This document shows, piece by piece, positions 2,284 to 60,939 of a DNA stretch of 64,000 bases (positions within the stretch are counted from its first letter, which is position 1; each line of letters begins with the position of its first letter). A program made the translations under genes and the position numbers. The stretch is from Lachnospiraceae bacterium (GTDB taxonomy: Bacteria; Bacillota; Clostridia; Lachnospirales; Lachnospiraceae). The stretch lies in NCBI GenBank assembly GCA_021201665.1, contig JAJQEO010000075.1:1-64000 (forward strand). Reading direction: 5' to 3'. The notes beneath the pieces were generated by a model. It ran no database searches and was not told where the DNA came from. It saw only the letters and a list, made by a program, of their open reading frames with translations.

Positions 2284-2311
2284 ATTTTAACATTACCATT
2301 AATTATGTCAA
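2284..2311 (-). promoter_or_regulatory. sigma-A promoter for the activase gene
   Basis: On the minus strand, TTGACA (2306-2311) and TAAAAT (2284-2289) are separated by 16 bp, about 75 bp upstream of the activase start. Confidence 0.6.
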
Positions 2312-2368
2312 GTGAAAAAAGTCTAAACATTTTACAATAACTTTACGTTGCTTTTTGCGAGATTCTGT

Positions 2369-2638
2369 TGTATCATATGTCCATACTTGCGCAGCAAGTA
2401 TGGACGCAGGCCGCGCTAATCGCGAAGCGATTCTCAATTGCGCGGCTTTCATTGTATCATATGTCCGTACTCGCACAGCGAGTATGGACGCAGGCCGCGC
2501 CTTGCGCGAAGCGCAACTTTAATGCGCGGCTTTCATTGTATCATATGTCCACACTCATTTATGAGTGTGGACGCAGGCAATGTTCCGATTTTCGCAGAAA
2601 ATCGAGAACGGTACCGCACTTTATACGGCTCACATTAT
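2369..2638 (+). repeat. Family A structured repeat, three tandem ~84-bp units
   Basis: Units begin at 2369, 2453 and 2537, an exact 84-bp period. Each contains a 12-bp hairpin framed by constant GTCC and GGAC (arms ATACTTGC/GCAAGTAT, GTACTCGC/GCGAGTAT and ACACTCAT/ATGAGTGT). In units 1 and 2 a second nested hairpin follows, with outer stem GCCGCGC/GCGCGGC and inner stem AATCGC/GCGATT or TTGCGC/GCGCAA. Unit 3 has a different second hairpin (GTTC-CGATTTTC/GAAAATCG-GAAC). Arms differ between units but still pair. Single units recur at 16717 and 60843. The array ends just before the ribosome binding site of the next gene. Confidence 0.9.
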
Positions 2639-2652
2639 AAGGAGATGATTTT

Positions 2653-3960
2653 TTGGCATCGGATGACGCCACTGGGCTACTATTGGTAATATTGCTTCTG
2701 TTATTGCTTCTTTCCGCTTTCTTTTCTTCCGCGGAGACTGCGCTGACATGCGCAAACCGGATCCGTCTGCAGGCACTTGCGGACGAGGGAGACAGGAGAG
2801 CTCTTGCTGTTCTCAAAACAATCGAAAACCGTCCCAAGCTCTTAAGCTCCCTCCTGATCGGAAACAATCTGGTAAACAACTTTCTCTCCGCTCTGACGGC
2901 CTCCCTGGCTATCAAGCTGGCCGGCGACGGATCGATCAGTATCGCGACGGCGATCGTTACAGTGCTGATTCTGATTTTCGGGGAAATCACGCCGAAAAAC
3001 ATCGCCACGACCTACCCGGAGAAGCTTGCGCTTTTATATTGCCCTGTTATCAGCGGCCTGATGAAAATTCTGACCCCGGTGATTTTTATTATAAACTCTG
3101 TCTGCCGGCTTTTGCTGAAGCCGTTCCACATCAGCCTGGACGGTACGATGAACACAGTGACCGAGCAGGAGCTGCGCACCTTTGTCGACGTCAGCCACCA
3201 GGAGGGCGTGATCGAGAAGGAAGAGCGCGAAATGATCTACAATGTCGTGGATTTTGGTGACTCGCTGGTCAAGGATGTGATGCTGCCCCGCTCAGAAGTG
3301 GTTATGGTCAGCGACACGGACTCTTTTGAAGAAATCAAGGAAACCTTCCGGCAGGAAAAATATTCCCGGCTCCCGGTATATCACGAGGATCCGGCGCATA
3401 TCGTCGGCATCCTGAATATCAAAAAGTTTTTCTGCTACGACGACGAAAACGGCTTCAATATCGAAGAGGCTATGTACAAGCCACATTTTACCTATGAGTT
3501 TAAAAAAACCTCGGACCTGCTTATGGCCATGCGCAAGGATTCCGCCAGCATGGCAATCGTCCTTGATGAATATGGAGAGACCGTCGGCATCGTCTCCCTG
3601 GAGGATCTGATTGAGGAAATTGTCGGCGACATCCGTGATGAATATGATGAGGATGAGGCAGACCTGATCCGCAAGATAGACGAGCGTGAGTATCAGATCG
3701 AGGGGTCGGTAAAGCTCGATGATATTAATGATAAGATCGGCCTGTCACTGGAATCGGAGGCCTGCGACTCGATCGGCGGACTGATCATTGAGCTGCTCGA
3801 CGATCTCCCGGAGGAACAGGATTCCGTCACTATGGAGGATGGCACCGAGCTCTCCGTGCTGAAGATGGAGGAAAACAAGATCGAGCTCGTGCGGCTGCTT
3901 CTGGCGGAGGAGAATCCGGAAGAAAGTGCGTCTGGAGGCGGTAACTCTGATGAATGCTGA
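2653..3960 (+). CDS. CNNM/CorC-type (hemolysin C-like) membrane protein with CBS pair
   Basis: 435-residue integral membrane protein with the HlyC/CorC architecture. An N-terminal DUF21 domain with about four hydrophobic helices (residues 5-150, including FFSSAETAL and the GEITPKN motif) is followed by two CBS domains (about 205-325) and a C-terminal CorC_HlyC domain (about 345-420) with the typical DDIND and GG motifs. The family takes part in Mg2+/Co2+ or Na+-linked ion transport; haemolysis is only a historical label. Translation begins at TTG 2653, set by an AAGGAG site; no in-frame ATG is better placed. The gene stands alone, with family A repeats upstream and a strong terminator downstream that it shares with convergent trkH. 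Confidence 0.9.
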   Translation: MASDDATGLLLVILLLLLLLSAFFSSAETALTCANRIRLQALADEGDRRALAVLKTIENRPKLLSSLLIGNNLVNNFLSALTASLAIKLAGDGSISIATAIVTVLILIFGEITPKNIATTYPEKLALLYCPVISGLMKILTPVIFIINSVCRLLLKPFHISLDGTMNTVTEQELRTFVDVSHQEGVIEKEEREMIYNVVDFGDSLVKDVMLPRSEVVMVSDTDSFEEIKETFRQEKYSRLPVYHEDPAHIVGILNIKKFFCYDDENGFNIEEAMYKPHFTYEFKKTSDLLMAMRKDSASMAIVLDEYGETVGIVSLEDLIEEIVGDIRDEYDEDEADLIRKIDEREYQIEGSVKLDDINDKIGLSLESEACDSIGGLIIELLDDLPEEQDSVTMEDGTELSVLKMEENKIELVRLLLAEENPEESASGGGNSDEC

Positions 3961-4239: not shown

Positions 4240-5676
4240 TTATTTTCTCCACGTACTCCTCGAAAACAGGATCAGCATCGGGAACAGCTCCAGCCTCCCG
4301 GCCAGCATGTCAAAGATCAGCACCAGCTTGGACAGATACGAAAATCCGGCAAAGTTCCCGGTCGGTCCCACCACCTCAAGACCGGGACCGATGTTGTTCA
4401 GGGTAGCCGCCACTGCTGTGAAATTGGTTGTAAAATCATAATTATCGATGGAAATCACCAGCAGCGACAGGGCGAATACCGCCGCATAAGCGATCAGGAA
4501 CACATTCACCAGCCGCACGGTGGATCGTTCCAGCGCGTGACCGTCTATTTTCAGTTTCCGGACATGGTGCGGGTGGGTGATCACATCCAGCTCGTTGCGG
4601 ATGGATTTGACCAGGATCAGGATGCGCTGCACCTTGATACCGCCGCCGGTGCTGCCCGCGCAGGAGCCGATACACATCAGAATCACCAGAATCGTCTTGG
4701 AAAAGCTTGGCCACAGGTTAAAGTCTGTCGTGGCAAAGCCGGTCGTCGTAATGATCGTACCCACCTGGAATGCTGCCTGCTGGATGGTCTGCAGCACACC
4801 GTCAAACATTCCATAAATGTTAATCGAAATTAAAACAATTGATGCCAGGATGATCAGCAGATAAACGCGCACCTCCGTCATGCCGAAGGCAGACTTCCAT
4901 TTTCGTTTCCAGAGCAGGTAGTAAAAGCTGAAATTGATGCCGAACATAATCATAAATATGGTTGTAACAACCTGCAAATAAGTATTATAGCTGGCCATAC
5001 TGTCATTTCTGATACCAAATCCGCCGGTGCCGGCCGTACCAAACACCGTGATCAGGGAATCAAACAGCGACATACCGCCGAGAAGGAGGAGCCCAAGCAT
5101 AATCAGGCTCAGCGCCACGTACATGCGGTAAAGAAGACCAGCCGTCCCTTTCACCTTCGGCACCAGCTTGCCCACGGACGGACCGGTGCTCTCTGCCTTC
5201 ATCATGTACATATTTCCCCCGCCCGCCAGAGGCAGGATCGACATAACAAACACCAGCACGCCCATACCGCCGATCCAGTGCGTAAAGCTCCGCCAGAACT
5301 GCAGACAGCGCGGCAGGGTCTCCACATCGGTCAAAATGGTAGAGCCGGTCGTCGTAAAACCGGAAACGATCTCAAAAACCGCGTCTATGTAATTCGGAAT
5401 CGCGCCCGCGATCACGAAGGGAAGGGCGCCGAACGCGCTCATGAAAATCCAGCACAGGGATACCGTCACAAATCCCTCTCTGGCGTGCATGGTCTTGCTT
5501 TTGGGCCCTTTCAGGGTCAACAGAAGCCCCGCCGCCACACAGAATCCCATCGCGGAGAGCAAACCGAAGCCCTCTCTCTCCCAGTAGATCAGAGCGACGA
5601 TCAGGGCTGGCGCCATCAGGACCGCCTCCAGAAGCAGCACCAGTCCCAGAATGTACCGGATTAATTTATAATTCAT
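4240..5676 (-). CDS. trkH: Trk-type potassium uptake protein, membrane subunit
   Basis: 478-residue K+-translocating subunit of a Trk/Ktr system. The four-fold pore-loop pattern of the superfamily is visible: TTTGST near residue 110, GTAGTGGFG near 220, a TTTGFAT loop and a GSCAGSTGGG loop near 390. Many hydrophobic helices start at residue 5. It lies downstream of trkA on the same strand, and TrkA is expected to gate it through its cytoplasmic face. The 396-bp gap to trkA is long for an operon, but no terminator is seen between them. The start is the ATG of MNYKLIRY; its ribosome site (AAAGG, somewhat distant) is weak. Confidence 0.93.
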   Translation of the reverse strand: MNYKLIRYILGLVLLLEAVLMAPALIVALIYWEREGFGLLSAMGFCVAAGLLLTLKGPKSKTMHAREGFVTVSLCWIFMSAFGALPFVIAGAIPNYIDAVFEIVSGFTTTGSTILTDVETLPRCLQFWRSFTHWIGGMGVLVFVMSILPLAGGGNMYMMKAESTGPSVGKLVPKVKGTAGLLYRMYVALSLIMLGLLLLGGMSLFDSLITVFGTAGTGGFGIRNDSMASYNTYLQVVTTIFMIMFGINFSFYYLLWKRKWKSAFGMTEVRVYLLIILASIVLISINIYGMFDGVLQTIQQAAFQVGTIITTTGFATTDFNLWPSFSKTILVILMCIGSCAGSTGGGIKVQRILILVKSIRNELDVITHPHHVRKLKIDGHALERSTVRLVNVFLIAYAAVFALSLLVISIDNYDFTTNFTAVAATLNNIGPGLEVVGPTGNFAGFSYLSKLVLIFDMLAGRLELFPMLILFSRSTWRK

Positions 5677-15182: not shown

Positions 15183-15576
15183 AACTACGCCTCCGTTTTT
15201 TATTTTCATAATCCTCTTGATCATTTTGCGCCGACATTCCTGGTTTCACGCGGTCTCTGCGGCAGCCACTGGCTATACGACACTTTCTGCCGCAGGCTTG
15301 TCAACAGATTATCCGCAGACTCTTATCGTGAAAAGGCTCTTGCCGTCGCGCACTGTGAATCATGATAGCACAGTGTTTTTTTTATTTCAATATAAAATCA
15401 GGCAAAATCCAGATGTTTCGGTGTTTTTTCCGATGCTCTTTCCGATGTTTTCTTCGATTTTGCCGGAACTTCTTCTCTATTGTACTTACTATCATTTTTC
15501 AGCAGGTGACATGTCTGAAAACCAGGCTATCTAAAATGTCGCTTCGCGAAATGGGCCCGGTCTGCGTCGTCAGTTT
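15183..15576. other. alaS upstream region
   Basis: 394 bp between the stop of the RNase HI fusion and the alaS start. A hairpin with stem CACTGTG/CACAGTG (15351-15375) is followed by eight T on the plus strand, although no plus-strand gene lies upstream of it. A perfect 10-bp hairpin (15566-15575 with 15579-15588) overlaps the stop codon of the fusion gene and probably ends it. A minus-strand TTGACA lies near 15300 without a good -10. Confidence 0.5.
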
Positions 15577-16626
15577 TCAACTGACGACATATTGCACAAC
15601 ATCTTCTATCAGGTCGCCCCCGTCTGCCGCGCTCGTTGCCAGACGGTCGCAGCGCTCGTTCTCCGGATGGCCGTCGTGCCCCTTTACCCAGTGCCAGGTG
15701 ATCCGGTGCGGTCCGGCCGCGGCCAGCAGCCGTTTCCAGAGGTCTACGTTTTTGACGGGGTCAGTCTTATTGCGCATCCAGTTTCGTTTGATCCAGCCGT
15801 CCAGCCAGTGCTGATTGAACGCATTGATCAGATACTGTGAATCCGAATACAGCTCGACCTCACAGGGACGGTTCAAAGCTTCCAGTCCGACAATCGCCGC
15901 CATCAACTCCATGCGGTTGTTGGTCGTTTTAATATAGCCCTGCGAAAGCTCTTTTTCATGCAATGCACCGGCAGCATCCGTATACTGTAAAACCACTCCG
16001 TAACCGCCCGGTCCGTCCGGATTGCCCCGAGCGGCTCCGTCGGTGAAAATGCGGATCGTTTTATTCGCGGTTTTCGCAGGATTCGCCGCCGGTTCTGTGA
16101 CGGGGGCAGGCTGCGTGGTTTTTTCCGATTCCTTATCCGATACAGATTGCGCGGACTCTTCCGGTTTCTGCAGCATCTCCCGGATTTGAGCAGCGACACG
16201 CTTTGACCCGGCGGCGTCGCGCCCCGCCGAGTTCACACCCACAACAATCGGATCGTTGTAGGCGAGTACCGGGAAATAAAAATCACACCTGGTCTTGTCA
16301 TTGCAAACATTGACCGGAACACCCATTTCTTTACAGTCTGTATAAATCTCCTGATTGAGTCTGTTGTCATTCGTCGCGGCGATGACCATCACGGCGCCGC
16401 AAATGTCTTCTTTGTCATATTTTTTCCGCAGGATGGTCAGCCGGCCGGCTCCCTCCAGGGTATGCAGCTCCGGATTGACCTCCGGCGCAATCACAAAAAG
16501 ATGGTCGGTAAAATCCACCAGCGCGCGAATCCGCCGCTTAGCGATCGTACCGGCTCCGACTACTACCACCTTTTTATCCGAGAGATTCACAAAAATCGGG
16601 AAGTATTTTCTATTTTTGTTTGCCAT
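15577..16626 (-). CDS. Fusion: siroheme-synthase-like (CysG/Met8 N-terminal) NAD(P)-binding domain + ribonuclease HI
   Basis: 349 residues. Residues 1-150 form a Rossmann domain typical of precorrin-2 dehydrogenase/sirohydrochlorin ferrochelatase: [24 protein letters not shown], and the [15 protein letters not shown] segment. A linker of ~40 residues rich in Ser/Glu/Pro follows. Residues ~190-340 are a complete RNase HI with all catalytic positions ([28 protein letters not shown]) and the WVKGH loop. RNase HI cleaves RNA in RNA:DNA hybrids. The C-terminal domain looks active; the N-terminal domain could be enzymatic or a redox/ligand sensor. ATG 16626 (GGTGA upstream) is chosen over 16638. 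I know of no standard role for this pairing. Confidence 0.85.
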
Positions 16627-16716: not shown

Positions 16717-16800
16717 TATATCATATGTCCGTACTCGCGCAGCGAGTATGGACGCAGGCCGCGCCAATCGCGCAGCGATTTTTAGTTGCGCGGCTCTCAT
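16717..16800 (+). repeat. Family A structured repeat, single unit
   Basis: 84 bp, the same length as the units at 2369-2638. Hairpin 1 arms are GTACTCGC/GCGAGTAT between GTCC and GGAC. Hairpin 2 has GCCGCGC/GCGCGGC outside and AATCGC/GCGATT inside. It lies upstream of the RNase HI fusion, transcribed away from it. Confidence 0.88.
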
Positions 16801-16925
16801 TATATCATGCACCCCCAAAAATGAAAACCTAAAATTTACAGCGAAACCGCGATCGCCGCTTTTCTTTTAAAAAACACTTGCGCCCCCCAAACCGTGATAT
16901 AAACAGATAGAAACAACCACCATTA

Positions 16926-60842: not shown

Positions 60843-60926
60843 CGATATATGTCCCACATCGCATGCGATGTGGGATGCAGGCCGTGCCATCGCGCGCATG
60901 CGCGATTTCTAATGGCACGGCTTTCC
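60843..60926 (+). repeat. Family A structured repeat, single unit
   Basis: 84 bp. Hairpin 1 arms CACATCGC/GCGATGTG follow GTCC; hairpin 2 has outer GCCGTGCC/GGCACGGC and inner ATCGCGC/GCGCGAT. The sequences differ from all other units but the pairing is kept. It lies between purC and the DUF6110-like gene. Confidence 0.85.
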
Positions 60927-60939
60927 ACGGCAGGGCTTC

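Follow-up and report, generated by a model that had tools for sequence, protein, structure and literature searches.

GTAG REPs and elements of the IS200/IS605 type follow a single-strand logic that makes use of hairpins. The small dispersed repeats (SDRs) that Elhai is said to have described in Nostoc in 2008 are reportedly 21–27 nt long, structured, subject to compensatory changes and nested insertions, and confined to subgroups; the repeat analyzed here is similar in all of these habits and differs from them in having 75–87 bp and two hairpins. For the Rickettsia palindromic elements (RPEs) and the CGTC REPs, we know of no mobilizing enzyme.

In the sections of Di Nocera 2013 (PMC3733652) that deal with GTAG REPs, the unit is a single hairpin of 20–40 bp with a GTAG-like foot, GYAG being allowed and degenerate forms occurring, and the RAYT (Y1_Tnp, PF01797) gene is flanked by repeats, although such REPtrons are missing in some species. 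The same sections place intragenic REPs in helicase and recBCD genes, mention TAG stops supplied by REPs, and locate uni-REPs close to where the genes upstream of them terminate at their 3′ side. CGTC REPs are characterized there by an unpaired CGTC, TGTC, or CCTC tag at one end, a stem of 8–9 bp, and no dedicated transposase. The RPEs, according to the portions of PMC10969869 and PMC2229807 that describe them, are palindromic mobile repeats of about 100–150 bp, found both between genes and in frame within unrelated genes.

Here we analyze a double-hairpin repeat in a 64-kb window (the whole stretch of Lachnospiraceae DNA under study, 64,000 nucleotides) and follow it through its genome and related genera. 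No published description of such a family was found in searches of the open-licence PMC literature. It probably represents a new family of small mobile elements that are REP-like, non-autonomous, and built of two hairpins, and its mobile nature, taken alone, is very likely. By the tests made, the family is close to the REPs and the RPEs in habit and a full member of neither.

Like the GTAG REPs of PMC3733652, as characterized in those sections, the copies are short palindromes scattered over the genome; their stems vary while staying complementary, one hairpin has a GTAG-like foot, and some copies lie inside genes. Unlike them, the unit measures about 80 bp and contains two different tandem hairpins, most home-genus copies have a GCAG or GAAG foot, of which GAAG falls outside the GYAG allowed there, and no linked RAYT was seen beside the copies. 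With the CGTC REPs of that account the family shares the palindromic form, the lack of a dedicated transposase, and a TGTC and GACG at the foot of hairpin 1. This word is, however, paired in 35 of 35 copies (columns 4-33, 5-32, and 6-31 of alignment A3, below), on a stem of 11–12 bp rather than 8–9 bp, and because of this pairing the family falls outside the CGTC definition. In-frame insertion into unrelated genes recalls the RPEs, from which, compared by the descriptions in PMC10969869 and PMC2229807, the family differs in its two hairpins, its size of about 80 bp, the wholesale replacement of stems, the nested modules, and the phylum.

Results and Discussion

The units of the window and their surroundings are as follows.

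2371..2376, plus strand: TATCAT preceding unit 1, resembling a −10 box (TTGCTT, 17 nt, TATCAT)
2376..2459, plus strand: tandem unit 1, with hairpin 1 at 2379-2405, the GCAG foot word at 2406-2409, hairpin 2 at 2410-2446, and the 3′ end CATTGTATCA
2460..2543, plus strand: tandem unit 2, with hairpin 1 at 2463-2489 and hairpin 2 at 2494-2530
2544..2638, plus strand: tandem unit 3, with hairpin 1, an AATGTTC..GAACGGTAC hairpin module, and a remnant of hairpin 2
2653..3960, plus strand: downstream gene for a CNNM / CorC-type transporter with CBS domains
15514..15591, minus strand: diverged sixth copy of the ATGTCGTCAGT..ACTGACGAC subfamily, found with model R1
16724..16807, plus strand: single unit; the site is empty in the relative G027, with a net insertion of 84 bp
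60848..60928, plus strand: single unit of a different stem subfamily, a model match

The five units of the preliminary description are all present, with starts at 2376, 2460, 2544, 16724, and 60848, and both the spacing of exactly 84 bp between the three tandem units and the stem arms quoted for them are correct. The common orientation given for these five holds, and the sixth copy, which that description lacked, lies on the minus strand. For unit 3, the earlier account is right about hairpin 1, which is normal, and needs amending at hairpin 2, which is a remnant preceded by another hairpin module. When folded as single-stranded DNA, all six window copies do better than dinucleotide shuffles of themselves, 200 per copy (z −4.3 to −6.5).

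Unit 3 stops directly 5′ of the AAGGAG of the next gene. The TATCAT at the 5′ edge of the array, together with TTGCTT, forms a putative promoter, judging from its sequence; the same TATCAT occurs in the empty site of three relatives, and TATTAT in two others. The unit at 60848 sits between purC and the next minus-strand gene according to simple gene calls. The CNNM transporter gene (window 2639-3918) is inverted relative to its neighbors in G001 and G033. At the G033 locus (L052), an unrelated second palindromic insert, ACAGGCCGCG..CCGATTG, flanked by two ATGCAC words, lies 5′ of the CNNM gene and adjoins a family element.

Constant Words and Changing Stems

The element reads YATGTC, hairpin 1, GACG, the foot word GHAG, and hairpin 2 ending in GGCTYTC. 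Its fixed words (GACGHAGRC 3′ of hairpin 1 and GGCTYTC 3′ of hairpin 2) frame many different stems, which differ wholesale between subfamilies. Hairpin 2 keeps an asymmetric architecture, the framing words are constant across genera, and a conserved CTCTC word lies on the 3′ side of hairpin 2. Some copies contain an extra AATGTTC..GAACGGTAC hairpin, either between the hairpins or in the inner loop, and some nest a CCTCGCCGGGG/ATCCCG..CGGGAT module in hairpin 2. The foot word 5′ of hairpin 2 is GCAG in 27, GAAG in 20, GTAG in 10, and absent in 2 of 59 rows from the home genome (G000), and mostly GTAG in two other genera of the family, g28 and g62 (GTAG 49, GCAG 4, GAAG 1, none 4 of 58 rows). 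Its final G forms a G-U pair in A3, so that the word is not fully unpaired.

The compensatory pairing of the arms, which the preliminary description proposed from five units, is borne out by two larger alignments and by arm swapping. In A3, which comprises 35 diverse copies, 95.6% of the cells are paired, and both sides have changed in 18 of 24 pairs. Covariation scores 0.444, compared to 0.135 (sd 0.011) for shuffles, which ignore the relatedness of the copies and of which none in 500 reaches 0.444. Slid partners score at most 0.112, a comparison in which the structure, set by hand from the consensus of a MAFFT alignment that was not structure-fitted, is favored over its slid versions. The 22 copies of A1 give 96.0% paired cells, two-sided changes in 11 of 26 pairs, and a score of 0.172 versus 0.080 shuffled. 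Swapping the arms among 127 distinct hairpin-1 inserts lowers the pairing from 0.86 to 0.64; for 24 well-separated inserts, chance pattern matches included, it drops from 0.67 to 0.47.

Dispersal and Insertion

Copies are not confined to the window; they occur across the 4.7-Mb draft genome, both between and within genes. Neither of the outcomes that would have spoken against the preliminary reading, a lack of covariation in a larger alignment and a confinement of drifting copies to the window, thus came about. Model R2, built from the 35 diverse copies, gives at least 129 matches at E ≤ 0.01 (150 of 1964 candidates scored), model R1, built from 22 copies, at least 135 at E ≤ 1 (150 of 2349 scored), and unit 1 as a DNA query at least 51 BLAST matches (40 of 82 scored); these counts are approximate because of 6.15% contamination and contigs that repeat each other (L071/L072; C26/C118). 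A hairpin-pair pattern scan that allowed the hairpins to lie far apart returned 81 matches, versus 19 with a reversed control. An autonomous version with distant hairpins was considered and rejected, the scan having given instead lone copies of hairpin 1. There are 16 of these without hairpin 2 (L108-L122, two loci repeating each other), with the stem CGATTTTC/GAAAATCG or near. At least four of them (L110, L111, L120, L121) sit in flanks that together make up a larger composite palindrome, GCATCTACGCTTCGCTCCGGTC .. ACCGACCGGAGCGAAGCGTAGAT or close to it, and hairpin modules therefore occur in more than one repeat family. Weak model matches of 20-21 bits in a relative (L053 of G008, at 81-129, 221-269, and 5521-5574) possibly belong to another hairpin repeat.

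Of 60 genomes searched with R1, matches appear in G000 and in 12 of 35 others of its genus (weakly in G024), and in none of 24 from other genera. With R2, 7 of 392 genomes of the order match when the best 11 candidates per genome are scored: G000 itself, five genomes spread over four further genera of its family (g28, g43, g56, and g62, with g43 represented by one match), and a weak match in another family. Within g62, 11 of 31 genomes have matches, from 24 down to 1 each. A pattern scan of named genomes places 78 of the 80 stretches listed, out of 95 in all, in Lachnospiraceae or Clostridiales MAGs; two matches in other phyla (L179, L190) are judged to be chance matches, being GC-rich, with 14 bits against R2 and long open frames on both strands. 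No match was obtained in phages (one query, window 2369-2545), plasmids (one query, one g62 copy), or viral contigs (one pattern).

The copies are interpreted as insertions because relatives have empty sites. At the 2369 site, five relatives lack the element directly after the TATCAT position; TGTTGTATCAT is kept in G031, G010, and G021 and TGTTGTATTAT in G008 and G014, each followed by its own sequence, and G008 has a weak match (21 bits) on the opposite strand in the same interval. G027 and G033 carry an element there, but with different stems. When 24 joined flanks were searched for in five relatives, nine spanning empty sites emerged beyond the 16724 site. Empty sites could be aligned for 10 of the 12 home-genus sites considered (approximately for L086, L084, and L032; L070 gave no alignment and L075 was filled), with a net insertion of about 75–84 bp and no constant target duplication across the ten. 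In g62, the sister species G369 lacks the element at five sites of G429, four of which aligned, L288 poorly, while L269 did not. Eleven copies share the same 81 nt in differing flanks, and further identical sets have six and four members.

A loose YRYNA motif precedes the element in the home genus. Counted over 141 of 142 rows with tandem copies retained, it has C/T at −5 in 71, A/G at −4 in 68, T/C at −3 in 68, and A at −1 in 56 of 79 older copies, and 58, 61, 58, and 45 at the same positions in 62 young ones. At three of the ten aligned sites (L082 and both L071 sites), the empty site lacks the base or bases that directly precede the element, and hence the motif is partly the element's own; the 3′ end of the young subfamily, CATTGTATCA, shows the same motif (TATCA). 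The motif was not seen 5′ of g28/g62 copies, whose junctions have a weak left-right match of 2-3 bp (z 4.0, the best among 56 length/offset tests) that hints at a short duplication. As regards the hallmarks of MITEs, terminal inverted repeats and a fixed target duplication, comparison of the ends by eye revealed no common inverted repeat, next to the lack of a constant duplication at the ten empty sites and the weak 2-3 bp signal of g28/g62.

Thirteen insertions within genes were classified by hand. Eight of them stay open and in phase with the host gene: L005, L074, L081, two in L083, one in L071, and two in the RecD2-like gene of L076. The remaining five are one in L076 and those in L010, L082, L084, and L032. 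Above cut-off, Pfam assigns the hosts to AAA-ATPase-like and PD-(D/E)XK (L005), PD-(D/E)XK (L083), AAA_35 (L081), microbial PARG (L074), and RecD2 (L076) domains; the L071 host frame has no Pfam match. As 61% of the element frames are open and the chance of being in frame and open is about 0.20, the count of 8 of 13 has P 0.0014, a rough value since the cases are non-independent, three lying in one RecD2-like gene, itself broken, and two in one other gene. This RecD2-like helicase gene (G000:C66:73085-79306) contains at least three elements, one of them frame-shifting, as well as a short tandem duplication with the same effect on the frame. With the frameshifted gene of L010 (lactate-dehydrogenase-like by inspection) in mind, translational bypass and splicing were weighed as ways to tolerate intragenic copies; both were discarded, since that gene has already lost its upstream part and 8 of the 13 insertions keep the frame.

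Gene Starts and a Possible RNA Leader

In g28 and g62, 51 of 53 copies have a sense start codon with a Shine-Dalgarno-like word downstream, 47 at 16-26 nt and four at 33-67 nt; the 53 come from 58 matches, leaving out L286 (truncated), L299, L233:8085, and one partner of each of two tandem pairs (L262:1289 and L281:1201). Such positions just 5′ of start codons differ from those given for uni-REPs in the relevant part of PMC3733652. Two gene types identified by inspection, galE-like and membrane protein, carry the element in two species each (L264/L281 and L269/L293).

This pattern would suit a cis-acting RNA leader, in which the two hairpins would control how well many mRNAs are translated or how stable they are, and would have multiplied by being useful. 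We nevertheless regard this as an improbable account of the family. Home-genus copies with a gene start within 70 nt mostly have it on the antisense side (14 versus 4 sense for 59 G000 copies, and 24 versus 3 for 83 others, with random positions hitting a start in 11% per direction); the rows cover 59 of 94, 83 of 121, and 25 of 28 matches, mostly higher scoring, with intragenic and tandem copies included. Copies also lie within genes, some of which they break, G369 does without the element at the five G429 sites, and most g62 genomes searched have no match. The start-codon placement in the two other genera may nevertheless reflect a role at the mRNA level.

Mobility could also be combined with a leader role. 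The element would be delivered, in g28 and g62, almost only to a few bases 5′ of a ribosome-binding site and in the sense direction, every jump giving a further gene the same structured 5′ leader, and it would be mobilized by an enzyme so far not connected with repeats of this kind. We consider this combination doubtful. Pairing between the conserved CTCTC word 3′ of hairpin 2 and the purine-rich Shine-Dalgarno region is conceivable, either at targeting or in the mRNA. The placement may come from targeting or from selection, and a selfish element alone does not explain the strict sense placement 5′ of start codons in g28 and g62.

In Search of a Mobilizing Enzyme

The REP-like character suggested in the preliminary description is retained insofar as the elements are small, palindromic, dispersed, and mobile, with a GTAG-like foot at hairpin 2; a link to a Y1 transposase of the TnpA-REP type, an enzyme that it proposed to look for elsewhere in the genome, is not supported. 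PF01797 has no match in G000 or in G013, G028, G031, G076, and G369 (completeness 99-100% for G076, G013, and G369, 65% for G028, and 90% for G031). The profile is present in 11 of 17 carriers and in 5 of 14 control genomes. No element copy lies beside a Y1 gene at 12 examined loci (12 of 23 matches, 34.7 kb).

These results bear on the possibility that the copies are REPs of the GTAG superfamily, moved by a RAYT (Y1) transposase that has since been lost or is distant from them. The GTAG foot prevailing in g28 and g62, the GCAG, GAAG, and GTAG feet of G000, and the Y1 genes of the 11 carriers are in its favor, as are the GYAG feet, missing REPtrons, intragenic REPs, and REP-supplied TAG stops of PMC3733652, so far as its account of GTAG REPs goes; the foot and these REP features would allow for an ancestral or distant RAYT. 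However, six carriers, three of them nearly or fully complete, are without a match, the 12 Y1 loci lack copies, and a single REP has nothing that corresponds to hairpin 1, so that we judge such an origin unlikely.

Palindromes can be corrected by template switching at replication. If imperfect palindromes were repaired in this way, the arms would match through mutation rather than selection, and wholesale stem differences between subfamilies are what such correction would yield. Hairpin 2, however, has an asymmetric architecture that is kept, the framing words are the same across genera, and the spread to new sites is left unexplained; we regard this as the least likely of the alternatives.

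A free-standing non-coding RNA, raised in the preliminary description, is set aside in view of the unrelated sites, the copies inside genes, and Rfam, which has no match above the gathering cut-off in the window and, when 14 loci and window 2300-2700 are searched at lax cut-offs, nothing beyond sub-threshold matches that lie away from the units.

Conclusions

The mobile-element reading follows from the dispersed copies, compensatory stems, empty sites, tandem arrays, nested modules, gene insertions, and identical copies in different flanks, and past mobility of the element is well supported. In the mechanism that we propose, the folded strand with its framing words, rather than the stem sequence, would be the substrate of a mobilizing enzyme supplied in trans, and the pairing of the stems would be kept because the fold is what the enzyme would recognize. 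That this mechanism acts on single strands and is guided by the hairpins is a possibility to which we give somewhat less than even weight. The family resembles IS200/IS605 and the GTAG REPs in its hairpins, its GTAG-like foot, and its lack of a long duplication, and differs in that no such enzyme is linked to it; neither the PF01797 search nor the 12 Y1 loci yielded a mobilizer.

A family with filled and empty sites, identical young copies, and carriers in which no Y1 gene was found (G076, G013, and G369) makes the question of the mobilizer testable. The element accounts for in-frame insertions seen among the predicted proteins of these bacteria, and if its start-codon placement in two genera is the result of targeting, it would be a means of equipping many genes with one leader.
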